The notes under the pieces were generated by a model. The model made no database searches. It had not been told where the DNA came from and saw only the letters and a list, made by a program, of their open reading frames with translations. Source: an uncultured Clostridia bacterium (GTDB lineage: Bacteria; Bacillota; Clostridia; TANB77; CAG-465). Taken from it: a DNA stretch of 35,180 nucleotides. Positions 19,834-31,630 of the stretch are shown piece after piece. The stretch lies in assembly GCA_947632635.1 (NCBI GenBank), contig CANRQA010000014.1, forward strand, positions 1-35,180, given 5' to 3'. Position 1 is the stretch's first letter. Each line of letters starts with the position of its first letter. The position numbers were made by a program, and so were the translations under genes.

Positions 19834-20646
19834 GTGGTAATAATAATAATTTTTTCCTTTATAACATCATATTATTTTATATCATATTATTTAGTTAAAC
19901 TTAAATCACAAAAAATTAGTAATAAAAAAGCATTAATTCTAAAATCTTTTAGTCATTTTAAATTTGTTAATAGATATATATTAGACGTAAATGAAAAACT
20001 AGCAAATTTAAATTTTCCATATGGCTTAAGTTTAAAAAGTTATTTAATTATAAAATATGTTTTAAGTATATCAATATTTTTTATAGCATTTTTTCAAAAT
20101 ATTAATTTATTAACATCAATAATTTTATTTCTAATTATCTTTTATTTACCAAATATTTTAATTTATATTTTCAAAAAAAGAGAAAAGCAAAAAGTTATAA
20201 ATGATATTTCAAACATTGTTCAAAATCTTATACTTTCACTTGCGTGTAAAACATCTTTGTATAATTCATTAATTTTAAGTAGCAATAGTATAACATATGA
20301 TAGATTAAAATATGAAATAAATGAATTTATAAATAACTATCGACTATATAATTTTAATGTAAAAAAAGCAAGTTACAATTTAACAAAAAAGATGGACATA
20401 GTAGAGCTTAAATTATTTATAAATATAATTGAAGAAGTGCAACAAAAAGGTAATGATGAAAAAATACTTATTGGTTTTTTAGATTATCTTGATGAATTTA
20501 AAATAAAAAATAGTTCTTTAAAAGTAAGTTCTAATACTTTTTTAATAATATTTATAACTTTCTTACTAATAATTAACAGTTTTTTAATAGTAATTTATCC
20601 AATATCAATACAAATTATTAATAATCTAAATAATATCTTAAATTAA
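19834..20646 (+). CDS. TadC/GspF-like pilus inner-membrane platform protein
   Basis: A 270-residue membrane protein with hydrophobic segments at about 2-20, 70-110 (two) and 235-265. Between the second pair and the last is a cytosolic helical domain (KREKQKVINDISNIVQNLILSLA...NLTKKMDIVELKLFINII) of the T2SSF type that contacts the assembly ATPase. It heads an operon with a Flp-type prepilin and a CpaB-like gene, supporting a TadC role. The start is GTG 19834, six bases after AGGAGGTGAT. An overlapping ATG at 19832 encodes only Met-Trp-stop. TadA and TadB are not in the window. Confidence 0.75.
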   Translation: MVIIIIFSFITSYYFISYYLVKLKSQKISNKKALILKSFSHFKFVNRYILDVNEKLANLNFPYGLSLKSYLIIKYVLSISIFFIAFFQNINLLTSIILFLIIFYLPNILIYIFKKREKQKVINDISNIVQNLILSLACKTSLYNSLILSSNSITYDRLKYEINEFINNYRLYNFNVKKASYNLTKKMDIVELKLFINIIEEVQQKGNDEKILIGFLDYLDEFKIKNSSLKVSSNTFLIIFITFLLIINSFLIVIYPISIQIINNLNNILN

Positions 20647-20664
20647 GAAAGGATGTGATAAGTA

Positions 20665-20838
20665 ATGAAAAATAAAAGAAATGGCTCTGCACTTGCAGAA
20701 TCTATTTTACTTATTGCTATATCTTTAGTTCTTGTTGTAGTATTATTTTATCCACAGATAGTTAAATTATTTAATACTGTAATGGAAAGTTTAAATACAT
20801 GGTTTTCAAATTCACTTGAAATAATAGGTATAACGTAA
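20665..20838 (+). CDS. Flp-type prepilin
   Basis: A 57-residue protein. It starts with a short basic leader (MKNKRNG), then SALAE followed by a hydrophobic helix (SILLIAISLVLVVVLFY). This fits prepilin peptidase cleavage after Gly7, with the conserved Glu at +5 of the mature protein. A GAAAGGATGTG site precedes the ATG. It lies between the TadC-like and CpaB-like genes with no gap to the latter (TAA then ATG). It is presumably the major pilin or a minor pilin of this locus. Confidence 0.82.
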   Translation: MKNKRNGSALAESILLIAISLVLVVVLFYPQIVKLFNTVMESLNTWFSNSLEIIGIT

Positions 20839-21507
20839 ATGTTAAGACTAAAAAAGAAAATATATATACTAGTTCTTGCAATAATTATTTATTTTTTTCT
20901 AAATTTTATATATAATATTGTTATAGTAAAAAAAGATTATTCACAGGTATATATTTTAAACGAAGATATTTTACAAGGAGAACAAATTGTTAAAGATAAA
21001 TTAAAACTTGTTAATATAAAAAATAGTGATAATAAATATATAACATCACTTAAAGAGGAATATATAGCAACTACTAATATATATTCTGGTGAAATTTTAA
21101 CATATAACAATGTAAAAGAAAAAGCAGAATATTTAGAATTAAACAAGGATAAAGAGATTATTTCAATAAAACTTGAAAATTTAGATGATACTGTTTCAAA
21201 TAAAATAACAAGAGGAAGTATAGTAAATATTTATTATACGGGTATGACAAATCAATTAAATGAAACTGAATTAAAAACTATACAAAAAAAGATTACAAGC
21301 ACTAAAAAAAGCGAGGGTTATACAACATTTAAATTTTTAGAAAATATAAGTATAATTGGAGCTTATGATACATATGGAAATATATTAGAAAAAAATAGTA
21401 ACTCATTAATTAGTTATATAAATATTGAGGTGGATTCAACGCTTGCAGAGATTATCAATAATTTAAAAAAGTATGGTGAGTTTAGTTTAACTCTTAAGGA
21501 GGGATAA
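20839..21507 (+). CDS. CpaB/RcpC-like pilus assembly protein (SAF domain)
   Basis: A 222-residue protein with an N-terminal transmembrane helix (about 7-30), then a SAF-type domain (VYILNEDILQGEQIVKDKLKLV...ATTNIYSGEILTYNNV). A CpaB C-terminal region follows, with ISIKLENLDDTVSNKITRGSIVNIYY. CpaB/RcpC acts outside the membrane in Flp pilus assembly. It sits immediately after the Flp prepilin. The family match is good in the first 140 residues and weaker beyond. Confidence 0.8.
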   Translation: MLRLKKKIYILVLAIIIYFFLNFIYNIVIVKKDYSQVYILNEDILQGEQIVKDKLKLVNIKNSDNKYITSLKEEYIATTNIYSGEILTYNNVKEKAEYLELNKDKEIISIKLENLDDTVSNKITRGSIVNIYYTGMTNQLNETELKTIQKKITSTKKSEGYTTFKFLENISIIGAYDTYGNILEKNSNSLISYINIEVDSTLAEIINNLKKYGEFSLTLKEG

Positions 21508-21509
21508 AA

Positions 21510-21875
21510 TTGAATTTGTTAATTTTAAAAGAAGATGTGGATACAAGAATTACAAATTATTATGATAATCTAAAAAGTGAATTAAATAGTATTGATAATG
21601 TAAATATAATAGAAGAAGAAAATTTTAAAGATTTTGAAACTGAAGAAATAGGAACTGTTGTAGTTATAGCAAATAATATTTTTAAGTTTAGTGATTTATT
21701 AGAAGAATTTAAAAATAAGAGGATACCTATATATATTGTATTAACAAGTACAAAAAGTAATGTTATAGCAAGAAGTATTAATATAACTAACTATGTATTT
21801 TATATTTCAAAGTCACCTAAAAAATTAATTGAGAGGATATTTTTAAAAAAATATAATGAAAAAAAGGATAATTAA
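21510..21875 (+). CDS. Small receiver-like protein of the pilus operon (possible TadZ/CpaE N-domain)
   Basis: A 121-residue soluble protein starting at TTG 21510, seven bases after AAGGAGGG. It has a Rossmann/receiver-like beta-alpha pattern (MNLLILKEDV..., GTVVVIANNIFKF, IPIYIVLTSTKS, YVFYISKSPKKLIERIF) with no clear phospho-acceptor Asp. Atypical receiver domains form the N-terminus of TadZ/CpaE, but the ParA-like ATPase half is absent here. Its last 20 bases overlap the next gene. The TadZ relation is tentative. Confidence 0.55.
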   Translation: MNLLILKEDVDTRITNYYDNLKSELNSIDNVNIIEEENFKDFETEEIGTVVVIANNIFKFSDLLEEFKNKRIPIYIVLTSTKSNVIARSINITNYVFYISKSPKKLIERIFLKKYNEKKDN

Positions 21876-23418
21876 ACTTGTTATAATAATTATTTTTGTA
21901 TTAATTATATTTCCTTTTAAAGAAAAAGTAAATGCAAGTTATATTGACTTTAAGTTCATAATAGATACAATAGGAATACCAGAATATAATGTAAAAGGCG
22001 AAAAAATAAATGAATTTATTTATTACACATATAATGTTTTTGTCTATTCTGACCCTATAAGTATAAAAAATAAAAGTTATCTTCAAAGATTTAAAGAGGT
22101 AAAGGACAAAGGAAAATTTACTCAAAATGGAGTTAAGGGAGAATATTATATTCTAGGTACTGATTATAACGGTAATTTTGTATATAATGTGTATTTTCCT
22201 GTTGATGAAGTTCCATTAAGTTTACCTGACAGTTGGATTTTTTTATCAAGTAATGAGAATTTGGCTTCGTGGAATGATAATATGAAGTATAAATATGAAG
22301 AGCAACTTTATTATATGAAATCAAGCAGATTATTATTTGATAGAATTGATATAAAAAATCATACGGCAGATTCATATGATTTAGTTGAGTACAATATATC
22401 ACCAATAAAAAATGGACTTGATAAATTTAAATTAAATACATCTGCAACATGGAAAACTATGGGTATTGTTACAGCAAAAAGATATGTAAATGGTAAAACT
22501 ATGGATGCTATATTTGCAACATCGCCTATGTGTGCTAGTGCAGATATTGTATCAACAGTTTTAACTCAAGATAGTTTAGTAATTGGAGAAGAAGATGATG
22601 AGGTAGACTTAAATATAACATTTGGCTGTAAAGCTGTTAATCTTAATGAATATGCAAAAGTAGAACATATTAAGGGCATAAAGTCAATTATATATATTAA
22701 TGGAAAAGAAGTAGATGTGATTAGTTCTACAAAAACAGATTTATTATCTAAAGAAATATCATATACAGTATCAAGAGAAGATGAAAATAAAAAAGAGTTT
22801 CCTTTGAAAATTTCAATTTTTAGCTTTTTATATACAGAATTTGCAGAAGATGGAATTTTGCAAAATACTGTAGAAAAAGAAGTTACCATATACCAAGAAG
22901 AAAAACTTATTAATGCTGTAGAAAGCATAGATGCTGGAATGATAAAAAAATTAAATGAAAAACTATATTTTAAACCATTAATGCTTACATCAGTTTGTAG
23001 AGATTATAATTCAGCAGGTATTGCACCAAAAGGTATTAATATGTGCTTACGATTACTATTAAACACAAAAAATGTTGAAAGTGTGGATATCTATATAAAT
23101 GATATAAAACAAGATGTGGAAATCTTAAAGCAAGATGAAATGTATATGTTTGTTACTTTTAAATTAGATGTTACACTTAAAACTACAATTTATGATGTTT
23201 ATTCATTAAGAGAAGATACGAAAAATTATTATAATATAGATAGAACTAAAATAGGTACAAGAAAGAATTTGCCAAATAATATGAGTATTAATGTATATAC
23301 TAAAAATAGCAGATTTGATTATGATATAAAATTTGATACAATATCACATTATATTTTTAATATAAATGAGGAATTAGATGTGGATGATTATAACAAATCG
23401 CAATTATTTGAAATTTAA
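21856..23418 (+). CDS. Secreted protein of the pilus operon, unknown function
   Basis: A 520-residue protein with a signal peptide (about 1-28, basic then IIKLVIIIIFVLIIF, probable cut after NAS). A long extracellular part follows with mostly beta-type sequence and no transmembrane helix at the C-terminus. I recognise no domain. Two cysteines (MCASAD and FGCKAV) and two later ones (SVCRDY, NMCLRL) could form disulfides. It overlaps both neighbours, so it is translated with the pilus genes. It may be a tip, anchoring or adhesive component, but that is only positional inference. Confidence 0.7.
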   Translation: MKKRIIKLVIIIIFVLIIFPFKEKVNASYIDFKFIIDTIGIPEYNVKGEKINEFIYYTYNVFVYSDPISIKNKSYLQRFKEVKDKGKFTQNGVKGEYYILGTDYNGNFVYNVYFPVDEVPLSLPDSWIFLSSNENLASWNDNMKYKYEEQLYYMKSSRLLFDRIDIKNHTADSYDLVEYNISPIKNGLDKFKLNTSATWKTMGIVTAKRYVNGKTMDAIFATSPMCASADIVSTVLTQDSLVIGEEDDEVDLNITFGCKAVNLNEYAKVEHIKGIKSIIYINGKEVDVISSTKTDLLSKEISYTVSREDENKKEFPLKISIFSFLYTEFAEDGILQNTVEKEVTIYQEEKLINAVESIDAGMIKKLNEKLYFKPLMLTSVCRDYNSAGIAPKGINMCLRLLLNTKNVESVDIYINDIKQDVEILKQDEMYMFVTFKLDVTLKTTIYDVYSLREDTKNYYNIDRTKIGTRKNLPNNMSINVYTKNSRFDYDIKFDTISHYIFNINEELDVDDYNKSQLFEI

Positions 23419-23821
23419 AAATAAAGGAAGCATTTTAATTTTTAGTATATATTTAGGAATGCTAATAATTATTTTACTTATTTCATTTCTAATAATATTA
23501 TATATTCAGTCAAATATGCAAGTTTTTACCCTAAAAGAAGATATATATTATATTTTTCAAGATGTAATAAGCTATGAATATTTTGATGATTTTTCATATT
23601 TTGAATTTGATATTGATAATCAAAAGTTAAAAAATGATATAAATGATGTTTTAAAGGAAAGAAATGTAAATGCTAAAGTTTTAAATATGATATATGATAA
23701 AAAAGAAAATGTGTTTTTATTAGACATAGAATTAAGTCTAAAATCAATTGTATTTGAAAATTACATTAAAGATTATAAATGTAATATAAAAGAAAAAATA
23801 AAATTTAAAATAATGGAGTAA
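23378..23821 (+). CDS. TadE-like pseudopilin
   Basis: A 147-residue protein with NKGSILIFSIYLGMLIIILLISFLIILY near the N-terminus (one transmembrane helix) and a small polar outer domain. The arrangement matches TadE-type pseudopilins, but the conserved Glu is missing. The frame starts inside the previous gene; ATG 23378 lies four bases after GAGGAA, and ATG 23384 (ten bases) is also possible. Length and position support a minor component of the pilus operon. Confidence 0.6.
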   Translation: MWMIITNRNYLKFKNKGSILIFSIYLGMLIIILLISFLIILYIQSNMQVFTLKEDIYYIFQDVISYEYFDDFSYFEFDIDNQKLKNDINDVLKERNVNAKVLNMIYDKKENVFLLDIELSLKSIVFENYIKDYKCNIKEKIKFKIME

Positions 23822-23828
23822 ATTAAAT

Positions 23829-24254
23829 TTGAAAAATTTGCAAATAATAAATAATAAAAGAGGCGAAACTTTAATAGCTGTAGTTTTTGTTACCTTTGTT
23901 TGTATTATGATAACAGTTTATATATTTTATTATCTATTTAATATTATAAATGTATTTATATGTTATGAAAAATTAAATAATATAGCCTTAAAATATATGT
24001 TTATATTAGAAAGATTTGGATATATAACGGCAGAGGAAAAAAAAGAAATGGTGAATGATTTAACTTCAAATGGTTTTGATGAAGAAAATATAACAATAAA
24101 TGTACCAACACTAAAGAGTAAATTTGGAGAAAAACTTGAATTAAGTATAGAATACAAATTTAGATTAGATAGTATTATAGTAAATAATGTATTTAGCAAG
24201 GAAACTGAGTATATTAACTTAAAGGTCAAAAAGGCTTGTTATAATAAAATATAA
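23829..24254 (+). CDS. TadE/TadF-like pseudopilin
   Basis: A 141-residue protein starting at TTG 23829. Its N-terminus NNKRGETLIAVVFVTFVCIMITVYIFYYLF resembles a prepilin: basic residues, Gly, then Glu and a hydrophobic helix. The Glu lies at +1 after Gly rather than +5, so it is atypical. A globular outer domain follows, ending KKACYNKI. It is the last gene of the operon, seven bases after the previous stop and just ahead of a terminator. Confidence 0.65.
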   Translation: MKNLQIINNKRGETLIAVVFVTFVCIMITVYIFYYLFNIINVFICYEKLNNIALKYMFILERFGYITAEEKKEMVNDLTSNGFDEENITINVPTLKSKFGEKLELSIEYKFRLDSIIVNNVFSKETEYINLKVKKACYNKI

Positions 24255-26249: not shown

Positions 26250-26400
26250 AAAAAACACCTATTATTTAAGTTTATATTAAATTTAGTAATTAGGTTAATT
26301 AAAATGTAAAATTCAGTTAGAAATTAAAGTTTTGATAGTGCAAGACTAAATTCCAGTTTTAGAATAAATATGGAATTTGCTTTTGCACTTAAATTTTTAT
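26250..26400 (+). other. rpsR downstream region: split inverted repeat and hairpin
   Basis: AAAAAACACCTA (26250-26261) is the exact inverted complement of TAGGTGTTTTTT at 28940-28951, beyond the LRR gene. A long hairpin (26337-26355 with 26371-26389; 7 and 8 base pairs around a 4x4 internal loop) with a T-rich tail probably terminates the S6 operon. A 15-base segment (26301-26315) and a 25-base segment (26363-26387, one mismatch) recur after the LRR gene. Confidence 0.65.
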
Positions 26401-26410
26401 ATATAAAGTA

Positions 26411-26439
26411 TTGAAAAAAGATTAGATATGATTTAAAAT
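26411..26439 (+). promoter_or_regulatory. Promoter of the LRR gene leader
   Basis: TTGAAA (26411-26416), a 17-base spacer and TAAAAT (26434-26439). The transcript would carry the repeat-containing leader ORF and the hairpin before the LRR gene. Confidence 0.55.
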
Positions 26440-26488
26440 AAGTATGTAAGAGTTAATAAAAACTATGTAAACAGGAGAGTAAAAATAT

Positions 26489-26533
26489 ATGAAAACACTA
26501 TACATACATACATACATACATACTACACATTAA
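26489..26533 (+). CDS. Candidate leader peptide with tetranucleotide repeat
   Basis: A 14-residue ORF (MKTLYIHTYIHTTH) begins at ATG 26489, preceded by AGGAGAG about ten bases upstream. Codons 5-12 are built from about 5.75 copies of TACA (26501-26523). With one more repeat unit the frame would run 48 codons, Lys-rich in its second half, and end at TAA 26629-26631 in the loop of the downstream hairpin. Expression is unproven. Confidence 0.45.
   Translation: MKTLYIHTYIHTTH
26501..26523 (+). repeat. (TACA)n microsatellite
   Basis: Five full TACA units plus TAC, in the 5' leader of the LRR gene. Tetranucleotide repeats of this kind mutate by slipped-strand mispairing and are typical of phase-variable genes. 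Confidence 0.9.
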
Positions 26534-26610
26534 AAAAAGAAGGTAGTGGCAAAATAAAAGAGGAAAAAATTGTAAAAAATGTAAAAAAATTAATAAAAAA
26601 TATAATAAAA

Positions 26611-26655
26611 CCAGTGTTAGGATATGGGTAAAATATTCTAGCACTGGTGTTTTGC
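26611..26655 (+). terminator. Terminator/attenuator in front of the LRR gene
   Basis: CCAGTGTTAG (26611-26620) pairs with CTAGCACTGG (26638-26647), one G-U pair in ten, followed by TGTTTTG. It lies between the leader ORF and the LRR gene, where it could act as an attenuator. Confidence 0.65.
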
Positions 26656-26684
26656 GTTAAAAAAGAAAAAAGAGAGGTAAAAGT

Positions 26685-28829
26685 ATGATAGGAAATAATA
26701 AAAGAAAAAGAGGAATAAGTCTAATAGTGTTAATAATAGTGATAGTAATAATAGTAATACTTACTACTACAGTAATGGTAACAGTAATAAATACAGGAAT
26801 AATAGATAATGCAAAAGAGGCAGTAATATTAAATACAATAGGAAATATAAAAGAGGAAATAGCATTTGAAAATCAAAATATAATATTAAATGGAGGAAAA
26901 GTAGGAACATTAGAAGAAAAATATGTAGAAGGAAAAGTAACAAGAAGTGTACAAGAATTAGAAGAAGGATCAGGAGAGTATTATATATATTATGTATTAT
27001 CACCAAATTCATATAGTGCAATGGGAGATTTAGGAAAGGGAACAGCAGCAAGTAGAAAAGATATATTTGTAATAGATGAATATGGAAATATAAAATACAT
27101 AAATAATAAAGGTAAAGAATATGGAGATAAAGTAGATGAGAAGATATTAGAAGATGAGACACATATAAGATTTAAGAATAAGGCATTTGGAGCATATGTA
27201 TCAAGTGTATCAGGAGCAACAGAGGAAGATATGATATTTCAGTGGATGAAGACGCAAACTTCTCTTACAATAGAAGATAAAACAGTAACAAGTTTAGAAG
27301 ATTTGGTATTTTTTCCAAATTTAACTAATTTAAAATTAGGAAGGTTAACATTAGAAAATTTAGATGGAATAGAAAATTGTACTAAGTTAACATCTTTAAA
27401 TTTTAGTGGAACTAAAATAAAAAATTATGATAAGGTAAAAAATATTTCAAATCTTAACTCTTTAGAATTATATTCAGCTGTTGACGATGAAAGCTTTGGA
27501 AAAGTGATAGAAAGTTTAAAGGATTTAACAAACTTTAAATATCTTAGGTTATGGCATAATGATGAATTAATAAATTTAAAGGAGATAGGAAAGTTAAAAA
27601 ATTTAAATAGACTTGTAATTGAATATAGCAATATTAATATTATGAATATAGATGTAATAGGAGAATTAAAAAGTTTAAAAACTTTAACTATATCACAGAA
27701 CAAAGGAATTAGTTCGATTGAATTTATTAAAAATTTAACAAATTTAGAAACTTTAGAACTTGTGGGAGATAATATAAGTGATATAACTCCTATAAGTTCA
27801 TGTACGAACTTAAAAACTTTAACATTGCAGTATAATAGTATAACAGATATAACGCCACTAAGTAAATGTATAAATTTAACATTTTTAGATTTAAAGGGAA
27901 ATGTAAGTATAGATGGAAATAGAGAAAATTATACACCAGAAAGATTAGAAGCATTAGATAAAATAGGAGAAATATTAGATAGAGATGGAACAATAAATAT
28001 AGACATTGATAAAATAGGATTATTTACTAATTATAAAACTTTAGATTTAAGTGGTCAAAATATGACAAATTTATTACCTTTAAAAGGATTAACTGAGTTA
28101 ACAGATCTAAATTTAACAAATAATCAGATAACACTAGAAGATGAAGAAAGTAAAAATATATTAAGTAGCATGACAAAGCTAAAAAAACTTGACTTATCAA
28201 AAAATAATGTAACAGATATAAGAGCTATAAATAGTTTAAATAATTTGGCATCTTTGAAATTATTTGGAGATTCGAACAAAGTAAATTTAGTAGAGATTGA
28301 AGATATAATATCAAATCTAATTTCTTTACAAGTAAATGAAGAAGATTTACCAACGATACTTGATTGTGATACAAAAAAAATAACTAAATTAATATTAGCG
28401 GGTGATGCATTTTCTTACATTTCAAAATTGCCTGATAATTTTTATAATCTTACGAGTTTAGTTTATTTAGGTTTAAGTGGAAATAAGATTAGTAATTTAA
28501 ATATAATAGAAAATATGAGCCAATTATTAGAGTTAAATCTTAGTAATACAAATTTGCATGATAAAATGATAGATTTTTCAAGATTAACAAATTTAACATA
28601 TTTAAATTTAAATAATAATACATTATGGAGTGACGATCTAGATAATTTGAAAGAATTAAGAAATAATACAAATTTAAAGTTATATTTACAAAATAATGCG
28701 ATAATAGATGCAAGTGCACTACTAGAACTTGATTCACAAACCAAAATATTTCTATCTGGAAATGTAAATTTAAGTGAGAATTCAAAGGAAAAACTAAGAG
28801 AGAGATTTGGTGGAAATATAAGTTTTTAA
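26685..28829 (+). CDS. Leucine-rich repeat surface protein with prepilin-like N-terminus
   Basis: A 714-residue protein. The N-terminus is basic (NNKRKRG), then ISLIVLIIVIVIIVILTTTVM, a prepilin-like Gly/hydrophobic segment with Val in place of the usual Glu5. A spacer of about 150 residues leads to leucine-rich repeats from about residue 195 to the end, in two blocks. The units are ~22 residues and of internalin type (LTNLKLGRLTLENLDGIENC, LKTLTLQYNSITDITPLSKC). Cell-surface recognition or adhesion is likely. GAGAGG precedes the ATG. The gene sits between duplicated flanks and behind a possible phase-variable leader, suggesting an accessory, switchable gene. Confidence 0.83.
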   Translation: MIGNNKRKRGISLIVLIIVIVIIVILTTTVMVTVINTGIIDNAKEAVILNTIGNIKEEIAFENQNIILNGGKVGTLEEKYVEGKVTRSVQELEEGSGEYYIYYVLSPNSYSAMGDLGKGTAASRKDIFVIDEYGNIKYINNKGKEYGDKVDEKILEDETHIRFKNKAFGAYVSSVSGATEEDMIFQWMKTQTSLTIEDKTVTSLEDLVFFPNLTNLKLGRLTLENLDGIENCTKLTSLNFSGTKIKNYDKVKNISNLNSLELYSAVDDESFGKVIESLKDLTNFKYLRLWHNDELINLKEIGKLKNLNRLVIEYSNINIMNIDVIGELKSLKTLTISQNKGISSIEFIKNLTNLETLELVGDNISDITPISSCTNLKTLTLQYNSITDITPLSKCINLTFLDLKGNVSIDGNRENYTPERLEALDKIGEILDRDGTINIDIDKIGLFTNYKTLDLSGQNMTNLLPLKGLTELTDLNLTNNQITLEDEESKNILSSMTKLKKLDLSKNNVTDIRAINSLNNLASLKLFGDSNKVNLVEIEDIISNLISLQVNEEDLPTILDCDTKKITKLILAGDAFSYISKLPDNFYNLTSLVYLGLSGNKISNLNIIENMSQLLELNLSNTNLHDKMIDFSRLTNLTYLNLNNNTLWSDDLDNLKELRNNTNLKLYLQNNAIIDASALLELDSQTKIFLSGNVNLSENSKEKLRERFGGNISF

Positions 28830-28865
28830 TAAATTTTAAATAAGAAAGTAAAAAAAGATTAAATA

Positions 28866-28951
28866 AAAATGTAAAATTCAATTTGAAAAGCAAAAATAAA
28901 TATGGAATTTACTTTTGCAATTAAACAAAATTTTGTAATTAGGTGTTTTTT
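28866..28951 (+). repeat. Right flank copy of the LRR-gene bounding repeat
   Basis: AAAATGTAAAATTCA (28866-28880) matches 26301-26315. The AATAAATATGGAATTT segment at 28895-28910 and its extension match 26363-26387. GTAATTAGGT (28935-28944) matches 26286-26295. All are in direct orientation. Confidence 0.8.
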
Positions 28952-30286: not shown

Positions 30287-30328
30287 TATATGCCTTATAC
30301 AAAAGACGGAGGAAGGAAGATTTTTCTT

Positions 30329-31630
30329 ATGAAAGTTTTAAAAAGAGATAATAAAGGTATTACACTTATTGTGTTAGTAATAACCATAATTGTTCTATTA
30401 ATTTTAACAACAGCAATTATTCAAGCAATGAACGGGAAAGGAATTATAGATAAAGCAAAAGAAGCAATTAATAAATGGAATATAGAAAATGAAAGAGAAG
30501 TATTACAATTAAATGTAGAAGCATATTTTATATCACGATATAATAATAATGATGAGAAGAAATTAGGAGAAGAACTATATGATAAAGGTTTATATAACGG
30601 AGAAAAATGGAATATGGTATTTGCAAAAAAAAAAAATTATGGAACAGGATGGAATTATGTAGGAAGTGGAACAAAAATAGGAGAATATGGAAAAACAAGA
30701 TACAATTGGGTAGTAAATTATGAGACAGGTGAAATAGAATATTTAGAAAAAGGAACATATCATAAATTAGATTATACAGATAGTATGGCAGTAACAACAG
30801 ATATAGCATTAAATATAGATGCTACGAATTTAAGTGACGAGAGTAGTTGGGAAAATGTAGAAAACTATGGAAAAGAAACAGATGGAACAGGAGGAGTTAC
30901 TTATGATGAAGAAAACATGGCTTTAGTATTTGATGGAAAAGATGATTATTTAAAACTAACTAAACCAGGAGACTTTTCAGATGGATTTACATTTGAAATG
31001 TATATGAACTTGGATAGATTATGCTATAATAATGGTAGTAAATGGGATGCGGCGGGATTCTTTTGTAAAATGCCTACACTTTCCAGTAATCTGCTTCATT
31101 CAATGAGGTTTGGATTTGCTCCACCATCATCAGATAACCCTGATTATATGAATGCTGCTAAGTTTTATGAAAAGAGTGATTGGGTAGGAGATGGATTTAG
31201 ATTGAGAACTGATTATCTTGGAACTGTGTTGGCACCTGCATCTTTAGAAGATAGTTATATTAATTGCGAAAAGTATATTACAATTGTGTATTATAGATAT
31301 GAAAAAAGTAAACCACAAGACGAGTCAATAAGTTCTTTTATGGAAAATTGCAAATGTGATGTATTGGCATATTATTTTGATGGGAAATTATATGGATACA
31401 CTGGCTATGGAAAAACTTCATATGATAAAGGATATGCAATATGGGGAGGAGATAATATTCCAATGTTTATTGGAGTATGCCCTTGGGGAGAAGACAGTAA
31501 TTTATATTATCTTAAGGGTAAAGTATATACGGTAAGGCTTTATACAAGGCCGTTAAGTAGTGATGAGGTATGGAATAACTATGATACAACACTTTCATAT
31601 AGAGATGCACTAAAAGAATTAATGGGATAA
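30329..31630 (+). CDS. LamG/concanavalin A-like surface protein with prepilin-like N-terminus
   Basis: A 433-residue protein beginning MKVLKRDNKGITLIVLVITIIVLLILTT: a basic leader, Gly, then a hydrophobic helix with Val where type IV pilins have Glu5. This is close to the N-terminus of the LRR protein at 26685. A linker with short repeats is followed by a jelly-roll domain (about residues 200-430), with LVFDGKDDYLKL, GFTFEMYMNLDR and the LamG-like ending GKVYTVRLYTRPLSSDEVWNNYD. Carbohydrate or surface binding is likely. GGAGGAAGGA precedes ATG 30329. It may be regulated from the palindromes upstream. Confidence 0.8.
   Translation: MKVLKRDNKGITLIVLVITIIVLLILTTAIIQAMNGKGIIDKAKEAINKWNIENEREVLQLNVEAYFISRYNNNDEKKLGEELYDKGLYNGEKWNMVFAKKKNYGTGWNYVGSGTKIGEYGKTRYNWVVNYETGEIEYLEKGTYHKLDYTDSMAVTTDIALNIDATNLSDESSWENVENYGKETDGTGGVTYDEENMALVFDGKDDYLKLTKPGDFSDGFTFEMYMNLDRLCYNNGSKWDAAGFFCKMPTLSSNLLHSMRFGFAPPSSDNPDYMNAAKFYEKSDWVGDGFRLRTDYLGTVLAPASLEDSYINCEKYITIVYYRYEKSKPQDESISSFMENCKCDVLAYYFDGKLYGYTGYGKTSYDKGYAIWGGDNIPMFIGVCPWGEDSNLYYLKGKVYTVRLYTRPLSSDEVWNNYDTTLSYRDALKELMG

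Follow-up and report, generated by a model that had tools for sequence, protein, structure and literature searches.

The locus analysed here lies in a 35,180-nt stretch of DNA (hereafter the window) from an uncultured Clostridia bacterium; the window corresponds to contig C14 of its 1.59 Mb assembly of 98 contigs (genome G000). The leader region described below is situated between a small ribosomal-protein-like gene and the gene for a 714-aa surface protein (Table 1). A first-pass annotation of the window had described a promoter, a 14-codon ORF, a TACA repeat, a hairpin and a leucine-rich-repeat (LRR) gene at this site, all of which were confirmed to be present. Its coordinates and frame arithmetic also held: one additional repeat unit, or two fewer, joins the leader ATG to the frame ending at 26629-26631. 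In the window copy the long frame is out of register with the ATG (offset 2) and the leader ORF stops 76 nt upstream of the hairpin; gain of one TACA unit would produce an ORF of 48 codons, and loss of two units one of 44 codons. Judged from sequence alone, the window copy, with its 5.75 units, is in the OFF state, as had been predicted.

The hairpin (-22.9 kcal/mol; z = -6.2 versus shuffled sequences) is followed by a U-rich tail and is the sole terminator-like site in 3.2 kb, where 0.1 would be expected; termination itself is inferred. Tails resembling TTTTGCGT are found in leader copies of several species. Promoter-like sites are no commoner in the real sequence than after shuffling; most leader copies are preceded by a comparable TTGNAA..TANAAT stretch. 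Phase variation through promoter spacing was rejected, since ~60 nt separate the predicted -10 element from the repeat that follows it. A search of the window against Rfam returned no match at the gathering score, with chance-level microRNA matches only.

Table 1. Features of the leader region and of the downstream surface gene (positions within the window).
Feature	Position (strand)	Description
Predicted sigma-70-type leader promoter	26411-26439 (+)	TTGAAA-17-TAAAAT; consensus match only
Conserved motif, then leader RBS	26464-26479 (+)	TATGTAAAC, then AGGAGAG
Leader ORF, present (inferred OFF) frame	26489-26533 (+)	MKTLYIHTYIHTTH, then stop; 14 codons; ATG 26489, stop 26531-26533
Simple sequence repeat	26501-26523 (+)	(TACA)5.75; translates as Y-I-H-T in all frames
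Long (predicted ON) frame after the repeat	26524-26631 (+)	YTLKKEGSGKIKEEKIVKNVKKLIKNIIKPVLGYG, then stop; TAA 26629-26631 in hairpin loop
Putative terminator hairpin	26610-26648 (+)	16 bp stem, 7-nt loop
U-rich tail	26649-26658 (+)	GTTTTGCGTT
Surface-gene RBS	26672-26678 (+)	AGAGAGG
Prepilin-like LRR surface protein gene	26685-28829 (+)	714 aa; N-terminus RKRGISLIVLIIVIVIIVIL..., then internalin-like LRRs
Second promoter-like sequence, other G000 copies		AAATTTCCAGTGACAATGTATAAA..TATAGT just past the hairpin; L009, L010, L012-L014, L016-L018, L043, L048

The surface protein matched Pfam LRR_4 (8e-30), with NCBIfam internalin models remaining under their cut-off. Partial direct repeats AATGTAAAATTC... 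and AATAAATATGGAATTTRCTTTTGCA, at 26297-26393 and 28862-28925, border the LRR gene and its leader. Arms AAAAAACACCTA / TAATTAGGTGTTTTTT, at 26250 and 28935-28951, resemble one terminator split by an insertion, and more copies of the LRR-gene flank occur at C86:2676 and C75:5035. It is possible that the gene arrived together with its leader as an inserted cassette. A second prepilin-like gene (30290-31630; KGITLIVLVITIIVLLIL...), with a weak laminin-G/concanavalin-like match, is not preceded by a repeat leader. Further upstream, positions 19834-24254 contain a cluster of small membrane proteins, one of which has a weak, below-cut-off match to the Flp pilus assembly protein CpaB; whether this cluster is a Tad-like pilus locus can be raised only as a possibility.

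The first-pass annotation treated a single locus; the leader is in fact a genome-wide family. A DNA search of the organism's own genome retrieved at least 23 further copies, which brings the total to at least 24 with that of the window. Nearly all of them carry a repeat of the unstable type, and nearly all are placed ahead of prepilin-like surface genes, the downstream gene being prepilin-like wherever its sequence was available. Conversely, every (TACA)4+ tract found in this genome falls inside a leader copy. A contig search beyond the own genome found contig CANRKD010000058.1, which carries two leader copies, as the sole relative. Approximately 20 TACA leaders are present in G019, a genome of the same genus (the TACA pattern search was restricted to the family), and no copy of the TACA leader was found in viral contigs.

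The repeat unit differs between species. It is TACA in G000 and G019, and an AC dinucleotide at the equivalent position in G004, G006, G012, G016 and G027; AC leaders occur in 5 of the 385 genomes of the order, all five within this genus. Spacers and hairpins of G000/G019, G006, G016, G004 and G012 are mutually unlike, the hairpin position remaining constant. The strict pattern TATGTAAACWAAAGGAG-ATGA was matched 21 times in G016, 15 times in G019 and once in G000, with near-variants in G000 and G006 and no match in other genomes of the family. No repeat leader was recognized by eye in the sampled upstream regions of G003, G013, G018 and G022, and the device is therefore not universal in the genus. 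Just 5' of the leader RBS, the motif TATGTAAAC (26464-26472 in the window), which contains ATG-TAA, is kept across species whose spacers and hairpins diverge.

Target genes of the leaders are prepilin-like in G000, CANRKD, G019, G006, G016 and G012. The leaders of G004 sit on a surface-protein family other than the prepilin-like one. In G008 (L183, L188, L192, L196, L200, L204 and L208), many AC repeats (8 + 32 pattern matches) stand at the start of short ORFs that precede another surface-protein family (RKVSIFTIFLWLFLIVTMSVITIG..., which G004 has too), and the repeat enters a long stem (ACAACATAGTTTT/AAAACTATGTTGT) without a U tract; these repeats do not follow the leader design described here and were left out of the counts.

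The reading frames were compared in 62 distinct leaders from six genomes (20 from G000, 1 from CANRKD, 11 from G019, 14 from G016, 9 from G006 and 7 from G004), all 62 of which possess an RBS, an ATG and a tandem repeat with a unit that is not a multiple of three. In 61 of the 62 leaders exactly one frame can be read from the repeat into the hairpin without meeting a stop, and in the remaining leader no frame can; among dinucleotide shuffles of the same spacers, 12-34% have one or more frames open. The one-open-frame pattern is far beyond chance. The long frame has its stop within the hairpin in 59 leaders and just past it in three, and in each of the two remaining frames a stop is reached 24-79 nt (median 56) before the hairpin. 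Among four G012 leaders scored apart from this set, three follow the rule and one is without an open frame. Since copies within a genome are related, the 62 leaders do not represent independent tests and the effective sample size is nearer to the number of species.

What is maintained in the long frame appears to be its openness. Among within-genome copies from five genomes, the long-frame pN/pS values were 1.14, 0.90, 1.71, 1.04 and 1.00. The frame nonetheless stays free of stops, and spacer length shifts by whole codons. The first-pass annotation had called the long-frame sequence coding-like and Lys-rich and had suggested a check on its conservation; that check was run and revealed no amino-acid constraint, so that the peptide failed as a conserved product (pN/pS about 1), the open frame being what is kept. 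With pN/pS about 1 and the frame kept open, selection therefore likely acts on translation as such rather than on the peptide sequence. Hairpin pairs covary among G000 and G019 copies in several columns (one pair occurs as G-C, A-T or G-T, another as T-A or A-T).

The same data bear on an alternative, according to which the product of the long frame is a small peptide that has a function and is made in a phase-variable manner, the hairpin being merely the terminator of its gene. Similar peptides do recur within a genome (KIKEEKIVKTVKK..KPVLGYG), as this reading would have it. However, the peptides are unrelated between sister species, the ORF ends within the hairpin and not before it in 59/62 leaders, and the leader precedes a surface gene wherever downstream sequence was available. 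The functional-peptide reading was rejected on the pN/pS values of the five genomes, and we consider it very unlikely.

Repeat number evolves faster than the flanking sequence among paralogues: in pairs with flanks at least 88% identical, tract length differs in 18 of 19 pairs in G019 and in 10 of 19 in G000. One genome was available per species, and repeat variation could thus be observed among paralogues only, without same-locus comparison of strains, reads or RNA data. In 5/62 leaders the ATG is in register with the long frame (predicted ON), namely in L014 of G000, two copies in G019 and one each in G016 and G004, with none in G006; random frames would predict about one third. The ON count is descriptive only, given that the G000 copies share tract lengths, and the surplus of OFF copies fits a repertoire of which few members are expressed at once. 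At L265 (G012:C20:16940-17111) the AC repeat is decayed (CACACATACACA) and the ATG is in the long frame; this may be a switch locked ON, a suggestion that we regard as no more than possible.

One could also imagine that the repeat is an incidental microsatellite and that the leader copies are no more than a cassette for recombination or duplication, dispersed around prepilin genes. The copies are indeed similar enough for recombination, and contig ends often fall within them. However, neither the one-open-frame rule nor in-frame spacer changes would be expected of a passive repeat, and the repeat unit has been swapped between species with the architecture kept. This explanation can be all but excluded.

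A close precedent for the arrangement exists in Streptococcus gallolyticus, where a leader peptide containing GCAGA repeats controls a premature terminator at the pil1 and pil3 loci (Danne et al. 2014, PLoS Pathog, PMC3894217). The evidence for pil1 includes variants, chloramphenicol treatment, deletion of the terminator, and start-codon and stop-codon mutants; terminator deletion or blocked leader translation alters pilus expression as predicted (PMC3894217). OFF leaders of pil1 end at least 28 nt before the terminator and ON leaders in or beside it (PMC3894217). Common to pil1/pil3 and the leaders described here are the promoter (predicted in the present leaders), a short leader ORF with a repeat unit that is not a multiple of three, a short frame stopping well ahead (39-49 bp in PMC3894217) of a stem-loop that is a terminator in pil1/pil3 and a putative one here, longer frames that end within this stem-loop or beside it, and surface appendage genes downstream. 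The systems differ in that S. gallolyticus has two loci with a pentanucleotide GCAGA unit that govern sortase-anchored pili, whereas the uncultured lineage has at least 24 loci in one genome, TACA or AC units, and type-IV-prepilin-like and LRR proteins (in G004, another surface family) as targets. In addition, only one of the three frames is predicted to be ON here, compared with both alternative frames in pil1.

We propose that the leader is a phase-variable transcription attenuator based on ribosome-mediated antitermination that is toggled by the repeat. RNA polymerase would start at the promoter upstream of the leader ORF, and a slipped-strand change in the repeat (TACA in the window) would alter the frame in which the leader is read. 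Two of the three frames would bring the ribosome to a stop 24-79 nt short, allowing the hairpin to form and transcription to end (OFF); in the third, it would enter the hairpin and terminate inside it, thereby keeping it open, and polymerase would reach the surface gene (ON). For the window copy, one extra unit or two fewer would effect the switch to ON. This reading is favoured because of the frame rule, the off-frame stops, the tract variation among paralogues, the exchange of TACA for AC with the architecture kept, and the S. gallolyticus precedent. The anatomy, the one-open-frame rule, paralogue tract variation and the reappearance of the design in sister species that use a different repeat unit are shown; promoter use, termination, read-through and switching within populations are inferred. 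Taken as a whole, we consider the mechanism very likely (probability of roughly 0.86). The original proposal that repeat number toggles transcription of the surface gene is accordingly supported by comparative evidence, its read-through and switching components remaining inferences.

Ribosome-mediated attenuation is well known from the trp and his leaders, in which translation of the leader decides whether the terminator hairpin forms. A histidine-type attenuator, in which stalling at a His-rich repeat would sense charged tRNA-His, might be suspected here, as the repeats translate into His/Thr-rich sequence in all frames (YIHT or HTHT). However, the repeat precedes the hairpin by 50-90 nt, the fold shows no evident pairing that could act as an alternative antiterminator, and the targets are surface proteins rather than histidine genes. 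Nor would such a mechanism need the one-open-frame rule; the amino-acid content is a by-product of the repeat unit. This alternative is virtually ruled out. Unlike in the trp and his leaders, the signal in a repeat-toggled attenuator would be heritable repeat number and not amino-acid supply, and there is no alternative antiterminator stem.

A further alternative holds that a ribosome translating the ON frame protects the leader against Rho or RNase, the hairpin serving RNA stability without being an intrinsic terminator. It predicts the same outcome, i.e. expression in the long frame only, and the U tract of the G000 copies is modest. However, the stem with its U-rich tail is of terminator type, most clearly in G006 (GGTTTTTTTGCG) and G004 (CTTTTTGCGT), and an ordinary gene-end hairpin in G019 (L112) was found by eye to have the same TTTTGCAT tail. 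We therefore hold shielding to be very improbable.

Some features count against repeat-toggled attenuation or would limit its tightness. With 5-6 units, the repeats are on the short side for slippage at very high frequency, and the U tract in G000 is short (TTTTGCG), so that some leak is likely. About ten G000 copies (Table 1), among them L014, the sole copy of this genome predicted to be ON, have a second promoter-like sequence, GTGACA-17-TATAGT, in the stretch from hairpin to gene; the exact core of this sequence, AAATTTCCARTGACNATNTA, occurs eight times in G000, always downstream of a leader hairpin. It might allow transcription of the gene whatever the state of the leader, its promoter activity being inferred. 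At the window locus and in all G019 copies, there is too little room for a promoter between hairpin and gene, and no promoter-like site was found in the 36-nt gap between the hairpin and the ATG (26685) of the window locus.

The mechanism as such is not new, having been demonstrated experimentally in S. gallolyticus (PMC3894217). What is new is the lineage, the number of loci (tens per genome), a repeat unit that can be exchanged, and prepilin-like or LRR proteins as the targets; the literature searched contained no case of phase variation by a repeat within an attenuator leader beyond the two pilus loci of S. gallolyticus. Phase variation through simple sequence repeats within coding regions is familiar from Neisseria and from the lic and mod genes of Haemophilus. 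Frame shifts by slipped-strand repeats, stochastic ON/OFF surface structures and many loci are common to these systems and to the leaders. In contrast to them, the repeat here belongs to a leader ORF ahead of the gene, and its effect would be exerted on transcription, via a terminator, so that the surface protein itself is unaltered.

By analogy with the S. gallolyticus pili, it is likely that the leader family causes pilin-like surface proteins to be switched on or off in individual cells, both switching and expression being inferred. With at least 24 leaders in the genome, the cells of a clone should then express differing subsets of the surface genes. A bolder reading, which we hold to be more likely than not, is that the surface repertoire of the genus is governed by a large set of transcription switches, each of them independent and heritable. 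These switches, tens per genome, would be mostly OFF at any time (5/62 ON) and would operate on two unrelated surface families (the prepilin-like one and that of G004); their spacer, hairpin and repeat unit could all be replaced as long as exactly one frame reaches the terminator. If this is true, what has been a curiosity would become a general design for the random, heritable expression of a surface repertoire. The combination of a strictly open frame with the absence of peptide constraint would provide a signature usable to find similar switches elsewhere and, as the ON/OFF state is readable from DNA, metagenomes of the host could show which surface proteins are expressed in each subpopulation without culturing.
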